This document shows positions 21,936 to 27,482 of a stretch of 36,937 nt of DNA, piece by piece (position 1 is the first letter of the stretch; each line of letters opens with the position of its first letter). The position numbers and the translations under genes were made by a program. The DNA lies in NCBI GenBank assembly GCA_019116905.1, contig DXAQ01000049.1, positions 1-36,937 of the forward strand, written 5' to 3'. This stretch comes from Candidatus Mucispirillum faecigallinarum (lineage in GTDB: Bacteria; Chrysiogenota; Deferribacteres; Deferribacterales; Mucispirillaceae). Below the pieces are notes generated by a model that was not told where the DNA came from, did no database searches, and worked only from the letters and a program-made list of their open reading frames with translations.

Positions 21936-21973
21936 AAAAAACCTAAGTTTAGAAATAAACTTAGGTTTTTTTA
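21936..21973 (+). terminator. Rho-independent terminator of trxA
   Basis: AAAAAACCTAAGTTT-agaaat-AAACTTAGGTTTTTTT, perfect 15-bp stem with U-tract. Confidence 0.88.
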
Positions 21974-21986
21974 TTGCTTAAAAATC

Positions 21987-22011
21987 AAATTGCCTGATTA
22001 ACAGGCAATTT
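21987..22011 (-). terminator. Terminator of the hsp20-dnaJ-hspR-clpB operon
   Basis: AAATTGCCTG-attaa-CAGGCAATTT, 10-bp stem directly after the clpB stop; minus-strand read-out gives a T-rich tail (GATTTTTAAG). Confidence 0.75.
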
Positions 22012-22024
22012 AATTTTAATATTA

Positions 22025-24625
22025 TTAGTGTTTAATAACGATTTTACCGTCTTTTGCAGTAAGATAAATTGTAGTATTTGGTTTAGTTTCGCCTTTAATT
22101 ATACTTTCAGCAACTAAATTTTCTATCATTTTTTGTATAGCACGTTTCATAGGTCTTGCACCAAAAGTAACATCGTAGCCGCTTTGTACAATTAAATCTA
22201 TGGCGCTGTCATCTACTTCTAAACCAACAGGCAGGTCAGCTAACCTTTTTGCAACGCCTTTTATTAAAAGTTTTGCAATAGATACTATATTTTCTTTTGT
22301 TAATGGGTGGAAAACGATAATATCATCAACCCTGTTTAAAAATTCAGGTTTAAAATACATAGAAAGCTCATTCATAGCAATCTGATTGATTTTACTGTAT
22401 TTCTCATCCATTGAGCCGTCTTTTGCAAATTCTTCCATAATATGCTGTGAAGCAACGTTAGAAGTCATTATAACAACAGTATTTTTAAAGTTTACAACTC
22501 TGCCTTTTGAGTCTGTAAGTCTGCCGTCATCTAAAAGCTGCAGAAGTATATTAAATACGTCTGGATGGGCTTTTTCAATTTCATCAAGCAGGATAACAGA
22601 ATATGGGCGTCTGCGTACTTTTTCTGTTAACTGGCCGCCTTCTTCATAACCAACATATCCAGGAGGCGCACCAATTAATTTAGCCACAGAGTGTTTTTCC
22701 ATATATTCGCTCATATCTATACGTATAAGAGCATCTTCTGTATCAAATAAAAATTCAGCCAGTGCTTTTGCAAGTTCAGTTTTACCAACCCCAGTAGGTC
22801 CAAGGAAGATAAATGAGCCCATAGGTCTTTTAGGGTCATTAAGCCCTGCACGGCTTCTTCTTACAGCTTCGCTTATTGCTTTAATTGCAACATCCTGCCC
22901 TATAACTCTTTCATGGAGGTAACTTTCCATATTAAGTAGTTTGTCTGCTTCTTCTTCTAAAAGTTTTGTAACAGGCACGCCAGTCCATCTGGAAACGACT
23001 TCTGCAATATCTTCTTCATCTACTTCTTCTTTAAGCATAGCTTTACCATGCTGTATATCTTTTAATTTTTCAGAAATTTCTTCCTGTTTTTTAGCAAGTT
23101 CTACAAGTGTGCCGTATTTTAACTGGCTTGCTTTTTCTAAATCGCCGCTTCTTTCAGCTACTTCTGCCTGATGTTTAGTGTTTTCAATTTCTTCTTTTAT
23201 ATCACGTGATTGCTGAATAATATTTTTTTCATTATTCCACTGGGTAGAAAGAGTGCCGATTTTTTCCTTTAAATCACCTAATTCTTTCTCAATATTTTCA
23301 CATCTTGTTTTAGATGCTGCATCAGTTTCTTTTTTAAGAGCCTGTCTTTCTATTTCAAGCTGTCTTGCACGTCTTTCAAGCTCATCAAGTTCAGCAGGCA
23401 TACTGTCTATTTCCATTCTTAAACGAGCTGTTGCCTCATCTATTAAGTCAATCGCTTTATCAGGCATAAACCTGTCAGCAATATATTTATTAGCTAAATG
23501 GGCAGCTGCAACTAATGCGCTGTCTTTTATTCTAACACCATGGTGGATTTCATATTTTTCTTTTAAGCCACGCAGAATAGAAACTGTATCTTCAACAGAA
23601 GGTTCTTTTACCATAACTGGCTGAAATCTTCTTTCAAGAGCAGCATCTTTTTCTATATATTTTTTATACTCATCAAGTGTAGTAGCGCCTATGCAGTGAA
23701 GTTCGCCTCTTGCAAGTGATGGTTTTAAAATATTTGCAGCATCCATTGCACCGTCAGTAGCACCAGCCCCAACAAGAGTATGGATTTCATCAATAAATAA
23801 TATAATTTCGCCGTTTGATTCTTTAATTTCTTTCAATATTGCTTTAAGTCTGTCTTCAAACTCACCTCTATATTTTGTACCTGCAATCAGTCCACCCATA
23901 TCTAAAACGGCAATAACTTTATTTTTTAAGCTTTCAGGAATATCGCCTTTTACTATTCTTTGGGCAAGTCCTTCTGCAATAGCAGTTTTACCAACACCAG
24001 GTTCACCAATTAATACAGGGTTGTTTTTAGTTCTTCTTGATAAAACATGTATTACACGCCTAATTTCTTCATCTCTGCCAATAACTGGGTCTAGTTTACC
24101 ATTTCTAGCAGCTTCAGTTAAGTTAATAGTATATTTTTCAAGAGTATTCATTTTTTCTTCTGGGTTTTGGTCTACTATTTTACTGCTGCCGCGTATTTCT
24201 TTAATGGCTTTATTAATGTTATTTGCATCAATACCATTACTTGAAAATATTTTTCTTAATGAATAGCCTGCATTTTCAACAGCACCTAAAAGTAAGTGTT
24301 CTGTTGATACATATTCATCTCCCATTTTTTTAGCTGTATCAAAAGCATAATCAATAGCTTTTTGTGTATCATTTGCTAATGTTGGCTGGGCAGAGCCTGA
24401 AACTTTTGGCAGAGTATCAAGTATTGATTTGATTTCTGCTGCAATCATATCAGGGTTTACTCCTAATTTCTGAAGGAGAGGGCGGATAAGTCCGTCAGTC
24501 TGAGTAAGGATTGCATAAGTTAAGTGTTCCACCTGCAGCATCTGGTGGGACATATTTTCTGCTAATTTCACAGTATCCTGCAAAGCTTCCTGCGCTTTGA
24601 TTGTCATTTTGTTGTAATTAATCAT
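22025..24625 (-). CDS. clpB: ATP-dependent chaperone ClpB
   Basis: 866 aa; two AAA+ modules (GEPGVGKTAIAEGLAQRI, GPTGVGKTELAKALAEFLF), middle coiled coil, N-domain repeats. Confidence 0.97.
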   Translation of the reverse strand: MINYNKMTIKAQEALQDTVKLAENMSHQMLQVEHLTYAILTQTDGLIRPLLQKLGVNPDMIAAEIKSILDTLPKVSGSAQPTLANDTQKAIDYAFDTAKKMGDEYVSTEHLLLGAVENAGYSLRKIFSSNGIDANNINKAIKEIRGSSKIVDQNPEEKMNTLEKYTINLTEAARNGKLDPVIGRDEEIRRVIHVLSRRTKNNPVLIGEPGVGKTAIAEGLAQRIVKGDIPESLKNKVIAVLDMGGLIAGTKYRGEFEDRLKAILKEIKESNGEIILFIDEIHTLVGAGATDGAMDAANILKPSLARGELHCIGATTLDEYKKYIEKDAALERRFQPVMVKEPSVEDTVSILRGLKEKYEIHHGVRIKDSALVAAAHLANKYIADRFMPDKAIDLIDEATARLRMEIDSMPAELDELERRARQLEIERQALKKETDAASKTRCENIEKELGDLKEKIGTLSTQWNNEKNIIQQSRDIKEEIENTKHQAEVAERSGDLEKASQLKYGTLVELAKKQEEISEKLKDIQHGKAMLKEEVDEEDIAEVVSRWTGVPVTKLLEEEADKLLNMESYLHERVIGQDVAIKAISEAVRRSRAGLNDPKRPMGSFIFLGPTGVGKTELAKALAEFLFDTEDALIRIDMSEYMEKHSVAKLIGAPPGYVGYEEGGQLTEKVRRRPYSVILLDEIEKAHPDVFNILLQLLDDGRLTDSKGRVVNFKNTVVIMTSNVASQHIMEEFAKDGSMDEKYSKINQIAMNELSMYFKPEFLNRVDDIIVFHPLTKENIVSIAKLLIKGVAKRLADLPVGLEVDDSAIDLIVQSGYDVTFGARPMKRAIQKMIENLVAESIIKGETKPNTTIYLTAKDGKIVIKH

Positions 24626-24639
24626 ACTATATACACCTT

Positions 24640-25002
24640 CTACTTTTCTCTTTCTATTTTTATTGTTTTAATATTGCTGTTTTTTTCCATAAGTGAAATA
24701 TCTTCACCATATTTTGATTTAATGCTTGCTTCTATCTGCATTAATTTATTATTTAATACAGATATTTGACTCTGCATAGATAAAATAACTTCTACACCTG
24801 CCAAATTAACGCCTTTCTGTCTTGTTAAAGTTTTAATAAACTGTAATTTTTCTATATCATTTTCAGAATACAGCCTGTTTTTTCCGTCAACTCTGCTGGG
24901 CACTACAAGCCCTAAACGCTCATACTGCCTTAAAGTTTGCGGATGAAGTCCTAACATTTCAGATGCTATACTTATCATATATTTTGGCAGATTTTTATCC
25001 AT
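24640..25002 (-). CDS. hspR: HspR-type MerR-family heat-shock repressor
   Basis: KYMISIASEMLGLHPQTLRQYERLGLVVPSRVDGKNRLYSENDIEKLQFIKTLTRQKGVNLAGVEVIL, typical HspR; located between dnaJ and clpB. Confidence 0.9.
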   Translation of the reverse strand: MDKNLPKYMISIASEMLGLHPQTLRQYERLGLVVPSRVDGKNRLYSENDIEKLQFIKTLTRQKGVNLAGVEVILSMQSQISVLNNKLMQIEASIKSKYGEDISLMEKNSNIKTIKIEREK

Positions 25003-25016
25003 AATATACCTTTAAA

Positions 25017-26123
25017 TTAAATAGTGCCTTTAGCTAAAATACTGCTTCTATCAAGTGTTGGAGTTTTACTTTGTGCTTTTAAAAGTAAGTCTTTTACTTC
25101 ATCACTGATTTTTTCTGGTGCTTTAATATTAATAACAACATATAAATCACCATTAATATTTTTTCTAAGCACAGGCATACCTTTTCCTTTAAGTCTTAAT
25201 TTTTGCCCGCTTTTTACACCAGCTGGTATATTTAAGTTGACAGCTCCATAAGGAGTAGGCACTGTTAATTTAGTTCCAAGTGCTGCTTCAAAAATGTCTA
25301 TATCCATATTAATAGTTAAATCACTGCCATTTCTTTCATATACTGGGCTGTCAATAACTGTAGTTTTAATATATAAATCACCTTCAGGCGCACCATTTTC
25401 CCCAGCATTTCCTTTACCTGCTACCCTTATTTTAGAGTCATTATCAATACCTGCTGGGATTTTTATTTTAATATGTTCATTAATATGTACATATCCTTTT
25501 GCACCGCATTTTGAGCATGGCTCAACTATTTTTTCACCAGTTCCACCGCAGGCTCTGCATGTTGAAGCAAAGAATGAACCATCACTTGACATTCCAGTTC
25601 CATGACATGCACTGCATGTTGTTTTTTTACCACCTGTGCCGTTACATGCAGGACATGATGCATTTCTATTAATATTTAATTCATAAGTAGTGCCTTTTAC
25701 AGCATCTGCAAATGGAACTTTTATAGAATAAATAATATCAGTTCCTTTTGCAGCTTTTGTCCTGCTCCTGCTTCTTGAAGATTTTGTGGAGAAACCGCCA
25801 AAAAAATCACCAAATAAATCTTCAAAAGATGAACCACCAAAATTAAAGTTACGCATATCTTCGTAATTCATATTTTGGAAGTTATAACCATGACCGCTGT
25901 TTGTAAAAGCATCATGACCTACTGCATCATATTCTTTTCTTTTTTCAGGGTCAGAAAGTACTGCATAAGCTTCTGATAACTCTTTAAATTTATTTTCTGC
26001 ATCTTTATCACCAGGGTTTACATCTGGGTGATATTTTCTGGCAAGAGTTCTATAACTTTTTTTAATTTCATCAGCTGTTGCAGTTTTGCTTACACCTAAT
26101 ATGTCATAATAATTTTTAGCCAT
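25017..26123 (-). CDS. dnaJ: Chaperone protein DnaJ
   Basis: J domain with HPD ([35 protein letters not shown]), G/F region, four CxxCxGxG-type zinc repeats. Confidence 0.95.
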
Positions 26124-26142: not shown

Positions 26143-26550
26143 TCAATATGAATTTTTTATATTTTTATTTAAAACTATTTTTAATATACCGTCTTTTAAT
26201 GATGCTTTCACAGAAGAAGTATCAATAGCAGCAGGAATAGCAAAAGTTCTGCAAAATCTGCCGCTTACACTTTCTATTTTGCACATATAGTCATCATTTT
26301 CAAAATCTTCTGATAATACTTTTTTATTACCACTAATAGATAATATACCATCACTTATATTTACTTCCATATCATTTTCAGACACGCCTGGAAGTTCTGC
26401 ATAAAGTATAATCACATTATCATTTTCTACAACATCTACAACAGGCAGCCAATCGTATGATTTTTCTTTAAAAGAATTATTTATAAGTTTATCAATATGT
26501 TTTTCCATAAAGAATAAATCTTTTAAAGGGTCCCATTTCATTATACTCAT
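26143..26550 (-). CDS. Small heat-shock protein, Hsp20/alpha-crystallin family
   Basis: DWLPVVDVVENDNVIILYAELPGVSENDMEVNISDGILSISGNKK...FCRTFAIPAAIDTSSVKASLKDGILKIVLNK. Confidence 0.94.
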   Translation of the reverse strand: MSIMKWDPLKDLFFMEKHIDKLINNSFKEKSYDWLPVVDVVENDNVIILYAELPGVSENDMEVNISDGILSISGNKKVLSEDFENDDYMCKIESVSGRFCRTFAIPAAIDTSSVKASLKDGILKIVLNKNIKNSY

Positions 26551-26576
26551 ATATCACCTTATACATTAGTATGGAT

Positions 26577-26607
26577 ATAATATGTGATTTGAGTCTAATT
26601 CTGTCAA
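26577..26607 (-). promoter_or_regulatory. Sigma70-like promoter of the heat-shock operon
   Basis: Minus strand TTGACA (26602-26607) with TATTAT (26577-26582, 19-nt spacer) or CATATT (26579-26584, 17-nt spacer). Confidence 0.6.
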
Positions 26608-26608
26608 G
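26588..26608. promoter_or_regulatory. HAIR-like HspR operator candidate
   Basis: Minus strand CTTGACA-N7-ACTCAAA versus HAIR consensus CTTGAGT-N7-ACTCAAG: 11/14 matches with exact N7 spacing, 38 bp upstream of the hsp20 start. Confidence 0.7.
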
Positions 26609-26649
26609 TGATTTTATAAAAAAAATAATTTTAATTTTTTTAAAACTAG

Positions 26650-26684: not shown

Positions 26685-27482
26685 ATGAAGTCATATAGAT
26701 TGTTAGCAGTTACAATATTATTATCATTAATACTGCATATATTAGTAATATTTTTTGTTAAATTTGTTCGTGAAGAACCAAAGGCGGAGGAGCATCCAAA
26801 AGGAGAGCCTGTTGAAATAGAGGTAATACCAAAAGAAAAACCAAAAGAAAATCCTTATTTGACAGCACCTGAAACAGATGATGCAGAAACTACTCTTGAC
26901 CATGATACATACGGCGGTAAAAGTGGAGGAGAAAGTGAAAGCCAGGATGAGCAGGGTGGAAGTCCTGCTAAAAGTCGTGATGTAACTAAAAAAGATATTA
27001 CTCCTCCAAAAGTTGAAAATAAAGTAAATGAAAGCAATGTGCAGGAAGAAGAAACAGCTCCATATAAGCTGAACCTTTATGATAATCAGGAAATTATCAA
27101 TAGAATAGCTAATGCAAAAAAAACTCCGCCAAAAGGGGAAGACAGCGCATCATATAACGTATTTGAAGAAAGGTATGCATCATATTTTGCAAAATTTCGC
27201 AGGCGTATCTATCAATTATGGGAATATCCTGCTGCCTCTATTGCAAGGGGTGAAACTGGTGTTGTTAAACTTTCTTTTTCAATATTAAAAGACGGCTCTA
27301 TTGTAAATGTCAGGATGCTTGAATCAAGCGGTTACCCTAATCTAGACAGGGAAGTTATGCGTGTTATTAAAAATATGGGTAAAGTACCGCTGCCAAAATC
27401 TTATGAATTAAACCAGTTAAATATTGAAGAAGCTTATTTTATATACTCTATTGGCAGCGGGTTTGGAAGATTTTTAGAGTAA
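26685..27482 (+). CDS. TonB-family energy transducer
   Basis: N-terminal TM, Pro/Glu/Lys-rich linker, C-terminal TonB domain (YQLWEYPAASIARGETGVVKLSFSILKDGSIVNVRMLESSGYPNLDREVMRVIKNMGKVPLP). Confidence 0.9.
   Translation: MKSYRLLAVTILLSLILHILVIFFVKFVREEPKAEEHPKGEPVEIEVIPKEKPKENPYLTAPETDDAETTLDHDTYGGKSGGESESQDEQGGSPAKSRDVTKKDITPPKVENKVNESNVQEEETAPYKLNLYDNQEIINRIANAKKTPPKGEDSASYNVFEERYASYFAKFRRRIYQLWEYPAASIARGETGVVKLSFSILKDGSIVNVRMLESSGYPNLDREVMRVIKNMGKVPLPKSYELNQLNIEEAYFIYSIGSGFGRFLE

Follow-up and report, generated by a model that had tools for sequence, protein, structure and literature searches.

The window, that is, the whole stretch of 36,937 nucleotides analysed here (contig C118 of the genome of Candidatus Mucispirillum faecigallinarum, which comprises 2.31 Mb in 168 contigs), carries on its minus strand a four-gene operon that opens with hsp20 (26143..26550), encoding a small heat-shock protein (Pfam PF00011). 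This gene is followed by dnaJ (25017..26123), whose product has a J domain, a zinc-finger region and a C-terminal domain and scores above the cut-off of TIGR02349, by hspR (24640..25002), encoding a heat-shock repressor of the MerR family, and finally by clpB (22025..24625; above the cut-off of TIGR03346). The genes are separated by 19, 14 and 14 bases, respectively. HspR reaches 116.5 bits against NCBIfam model NF047375, the cut-off of which is 105, and both HspR and ClpB lie above the equivalog cut-offs of NCBIfam; the original prediction, which had named the four genes and had placed an HspR-type MerR regulator among them, was thus borne out by NCBIfam and Pfam. The helix–turn–helix motif of the protein, HPQTLRQYE...GVNLAG, is common to the HspR proteins of Campylobacterota and Armatimonadota. 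HspR (window 24640-25002) also ends in a tail conserved throughout the order, of the type IxKIKIExE, which reads TIKIEREK in Mucispirillum.

The terminator that had been proposed downstream of clpB is likewise present, in the form of two strong hairpins, both of which fold far better than shuffled sequences. One of them (21987..22011, minus strand; fold z-score −6.45) is followed by GATTTTT, while the other (21936..21971; fold z-score −6.56) is symmetrical, A/T-flanked, assigned to neither strand and located between the convergent clpB and trx genes. At its other end, the operon shares a 134-bp intergenic region with a tonB-like gene (26685..27482, plus strand; PF03544), which is divergent from the operon in most relatives also. 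An Rfam search of the window for an RNA thermometer found none.

The intergenic region contains a 21-bp site, CTTGACAGAATTAGACTCAAA (26588..26608; read on the minus strand from 26608 to 26588), upstream of hsp20-dnaJ-hspR-clpB and 37 bases before the hsp20 start (26550). Direct reading of the minus strand confirms the predicted resemblance to the HspR operator: the arms CTTGACA-GAATTAG-ACTCAAA match the HAIR consensus CTTGAGT-N7-ACTCAAG at 5/7 and 6/7 positions (11/14), with exact spacing, so that the inverted repeat is a variant of HAIR rather than a letter-for-letter copy. Palindromic conservation reaches one base past each arm, to A at 26609 and T at 26587. The left arm contains, as had been claimed, a −35 hexamer, TTGACA (26602..26607), which is followed after a 17-nt spacer by CATATT (26579..26584), the local form of a −10 hexamer that reads TATwwT across the order; the interval in which the site had been noted (26577-26608) spans this likely −10 as well. 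The two hexamers give 10 of 12 matches, and transcription would be expected to start near 26572, with the operator spanning −36 to about −16. Directly upstream of the −35 lies an A-tract, ATAAAAT (26611..26617), whose raised conservation (columns −9 to −3) and resemblance to a proximal UP element suggest a function of that kind. The left arm departs from HAIR CTTGAGT at exactly two bases, those needed for TTGACA; because TTGACA is invariant (37/37 genomes), the arm reads CTTGACA, the operator and the −35 sharing bases. The fused −35/operator half-site offers a clean case for studying how a palindrome and a promoter element can share bases.

In the genome-wide motif scan proposed with the original prediction, the loose pattern CTTGA-N11-TCAAG gave 35 hits with at most one mismatch across the 2.31 Mb, vs 29 for the reversed control, and was dropped as a source of further HspR targets because its counts are at control level. 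One palindrome match, taken alone, is therefore weak genome-wide evidence, with about 0.002 such matches expected by chance in the 134-bp intergenic region. The order-wide consensus CTTGAN9RCTCAAR, on the other hand, has a single perfect match in the Mucispirillum genome, which is the operator itself, and none in the reversed control; a pattern one base shorter, used as an off-register control, gave counts at control level. Other full-consensus matches in genomes of the order, mostly inside genes, were discarded. When several repeats were sought in the promoter, the second-best matches reached 6-8/10, the chance level, leaving one visible operator. Multiple repeats do not define the HAIR family, H. 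pylori having one repeat too. Further degenerate HspR sites may exist elsewhere in the Mucispirillum genome.

Conservation was assessed in 37 Deferribacterales genomes from 14 genera in which the promoter of the orthologous operon could be aligned. The operator is present at the same place in all 37 promoters, which, being related by ancestry, are not 37 independent observations; the expectation that the motif would be kept upstream of orthologous operons was met in every case. Beyond the 37, two further genomes (G029 and G034), the contigs of which are split, also carry it before an hsp20 start. The distance from the operator to this start is 34-51 nt in 36 of the 37 genomes and 108 nt in G013, with the start as called here. 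When each genus is weighted once, TTGACA is invariant, and so are C15, T16 and A18 of the right arm and the following base, T21, while G13 and C17 of the right arm stand at 91% and 78%; between the arms, the sequence varies almost freely (0.1-0.5 bits in columns 7-12). Immediately upstream of the left arm stands A in 88% (genus-weighted), which pairs with T21 and makes the palindrome 23 bp long. Nearly all members of the order have CTTGACA as left arm, two genomes having GTTGACA. The right arm is degraded in some genomes that keep hspR, to CTTAAT in G008 and to CTAAxx in G024, G031, G035 and G036.

The gene order hsp20-dnaJ-hspR-clpB is kept throughout the Deferribacterales and did not turn up at any locus examined from Campylobacterota or Armatimonadota; the suggestion that this combination is lineage-specific is accordingly right for the order, as far as the sampled genomes go. 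One genome (G017) has kept clpB (68% identity) and has no hspR; a HAIR site sought upstream of its clpB was not found. Another (G012) yielded neither an hspR match nor a clpB of this type. The latter genome contains, at G012:C28:11857-12063, five HAIR-like 21-mers of the CTTGATTATTACATACTCAAA type placed 46-47 bases apart, which look like a tandem repeat array. At three loci (L147, L148 and L128) from two families of the order, the operator is preceded, at a distance of about 22-23 bases, by an extra TTGAGT half-site.

We consider it very probable that HspR autorepresses hsp20-dnaJ-hspR-clpB by blocking RNA polymerase at the −35-fused operator, with repression presumably relieved upon heat shock. 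In unstressed cells, an HspR dimer bound to CTTGACA-N7-ACTCAAA would cover the −35 and most of the spacer, and would sterically bar sigma-70 RNA polymerase from the promoter. Heat shock would release HspR, probably as a chaperone on which it would depend is drawn to unfolded protein; Hsp20, DnaJ, HspR and ClpB would then be made together, and the newly made HspR, as the product of the third gene, would close the loop. The affinity of HspR for this site could be below that for a symmetrical HAIR, since two bases of the HAIR left arm are lacking in all the genomes. Counting against the proposal are the single visible operator, vs several in Streptomyces and C. jejuni, and the degraded right arm of the few hspR-bearing genomes named above. 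The HspR-autoregulated heat-shock operon of the original prediction nevertheless appears well supported by the comparison of sequences.

Alternatively, the site might simply be a strong sigma-70 promoter whose −35 reads CTTGACA, with a right arm that arose by chance. This would be consistent with the lack of genome-wide enrichment of the loose palindrome and with the presence of CTTGACA as the −35 of the CIRCE-controlled hrcA and htpG promoters of the Mucispirillum genome too. These two promoters, however, lack the right arm, which is therefore linked to HspR rather than to CTTGACA; the left arm alone would say little, and the right arm would be the signature of HspR. Moreover, across 14 genera the right arm hardly varies although it lies within the −35/−10 spacer, where sigma-70 reads little, a pattern that a promoter alone would not explain, and the palindromic conservation extends to the flanking A and T. 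A coincidental right arm thus seems improbable to us.

We give equally little credit to a heat-shock promoter of the sigma-32 type (CTTGAA ... CCCATnT), served by an alternative sigma factor while HspR acts elsewhere. CTTGA does resemble the −35 of sigma-32, and most members of the order have a sigma-70-family gene at the end of the operon. Yet the −10 is of the TATwwT form, with no CCCAT block seen; in 10 genomes of the order, the RpoH model had no hit above its cut-off, and the operon-linked sigma factor gives its highest scores with the RpoD and RpoS models, short of the cut-offs of both. Activation by promoter twisting in the classical MerR style, by HspR or another protein of this type, is the least plausible of these accounts. 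HspR does belong to the MerR family and the dyad does overlap the −35/−10 spacer; MerR activators, however, work on spacers of 19-20 nt with the dyad between the hexamers, whereas the hexamers are good here and 17 nt apart, and those HspR proteins that have been studied act as repressors of these genes.

Other chaperone genes carry the sites of a second repressor, HrcA. The CIRCE pattern, defined as TTAGCACTC-N9-GAGTGCTAA, occurs at four places in the Mucispirillum genome and at none in the control. Its targets are hrcA-grpE-dnaK, groESL, htpG and a second hsp20, and none of the four sites lies at the hsp20-dnaJ-hspR-clpB promoter. HrcA/CIRCE is thus, like HspR, a chaperone repressor system of this genome, but its operator and its four targets are separate from the HspR site, and each of the two repressors appears to control a set of chaperones of its own. 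The predicted heat-shock wiring of this common gut genus would have HspR controlling hsp20, dnaJ and clpB, and HrcA controlling dnaK, groESL, htpG and the second hsp20.

Elsewhere in the order, 11 genomes of five genera have an hrcA-grpE-dnaK promoter whose −35 is overlain by an HspR site and whose −10 is closely followed by CIRCE, vs none in the control; the identity of hrcA was checked in three of the 11. These joint promoters (L298-L308) are absent from Mucispirillum. An additional hsp20 with an HspR site is found in G021, G030 and G044. In front of the second hsp20, the CIRCE (L268:1001-1027, on contig C38 of G000; also in G007, G003 and G011) has TTGACA inside, at the cost of one right-arm base; this overlap is the same kind of operator/−35 fusion, with the other repressor.

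A literature search returned no paper on HspR in Deferribacterota and nothing on the Deferribacterales operon; our analysis thus extends a well-studied repressor–operator pair, HspR/HAIR, to this phylum. To judge from the sequence, what the Mucispirillum system adds is a lineage-specific gene order and the fused −35. In Streptomyces, the targets of HspR, recognized through CTTGAGT-N7-ACTCAAG, are the dnaK operon, clpB and lon. There, as in Mucispirillum, a MerR-family repressor is encoded in its own operon, the 21-bp repeat and its spacing are the same and clpB is a target; Streptomyces, however, has three operators vs one, whereas in Mucispirillum the left arm, CTTGACA, is merged with the −35, the operon groups hspR with hsp20, dnaJ and clpB, and dnaK is under HrcA.

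The HspR set of H. pylori and C. jejuni comprises cbpA-hspR, clpB, groESL and hrcA-grpE-dnaK, in concert with HrcA. These bacteria resemble Mucispirillum in having a DnaJ-type gene directly upstream of hspR, a HAIR-like site that overlies the core promoter of the operon containing hspR, and HspR and HrcA in the same cell, but the targets of the HspR and HrcA sites are distinct in Mucispirillum. In H. pylori, mutation of the HAIR-like repeat abolished HspR binding and derepressed Pcbp (PMC6102357), and at both Pcbp and Pclp of C. jejuni, HspR occupies the core promoter (PMC7464140). The joint HspR and CIRCE sites at hrcA-grpE-dnaK in Deferribacterales recall C. jejuni, in which, however, HspR is positioned upstream of the core promoter (PMC7464140) rather than over the −35. 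As far as the citation in PMC2687793 goes, the HspR targets of Deinococcus radiodurans are hsp20, dnaJ, clpB, dnaK, lonB and ftsH; the first three are common to Mucispirillum, where, unlike in this wide regulon that includes dnaK, one operon appears to hold all targets.

A sigma-70-family gene lies directly downstream of clpB in 26 operon-bearing genomes (e.g. L340:1086-2009 in G020 and L339:1488-2411 in G011), with a gap of about 60 bases as measured in two of them. A 27th case is G034, in which clpB and the sigma gene adjoin and the contig ends before hspR. To judge by spacing, clpB and this gene may be co-transcribed. In Mucispirillum the sigma gene is found elsewhere (L338:2886-3812), the distance from clpB being about 160 kb along a single chromosome in G007.

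In the Campylobacterota and Armatimonadota loci (L050-L120), which were chosen by HspR similarity, a HAIR-like repeat precedes dnaJ-hspR in most of those examined, with its spacing kept. The repeat is CTTGATTGACATTGACTMAA in Campylobacterota, where TTGAC occupies positions 5-9 in the majority of 27 loci, and CTTGAGTGTTATATACTCATG in Armatimonadota, with TATACT inside. The register of the operator relative to promoter elements thus appears to differ between phyla, with the caution that Campylobacterota promoters often have no functional −35. It is tempting to speculate, at somewhat less than even chances for the whole, that HspR controls a sigma factor and hence a second tier of genes in most Deferribacterales, a link that Mucispirillum would have cut by moving the sigma gene, and that the same HspR operator has come to lie over a different promoter element in each phylum, with the −35 in its left arm in Deferribacterales, TTGAC in its centre in Campylobacterota and a −10-like TATACT in its right half in Armatimonadota. 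The Armatimonadota loci contain a second half-site, TTGAGCG, as well.
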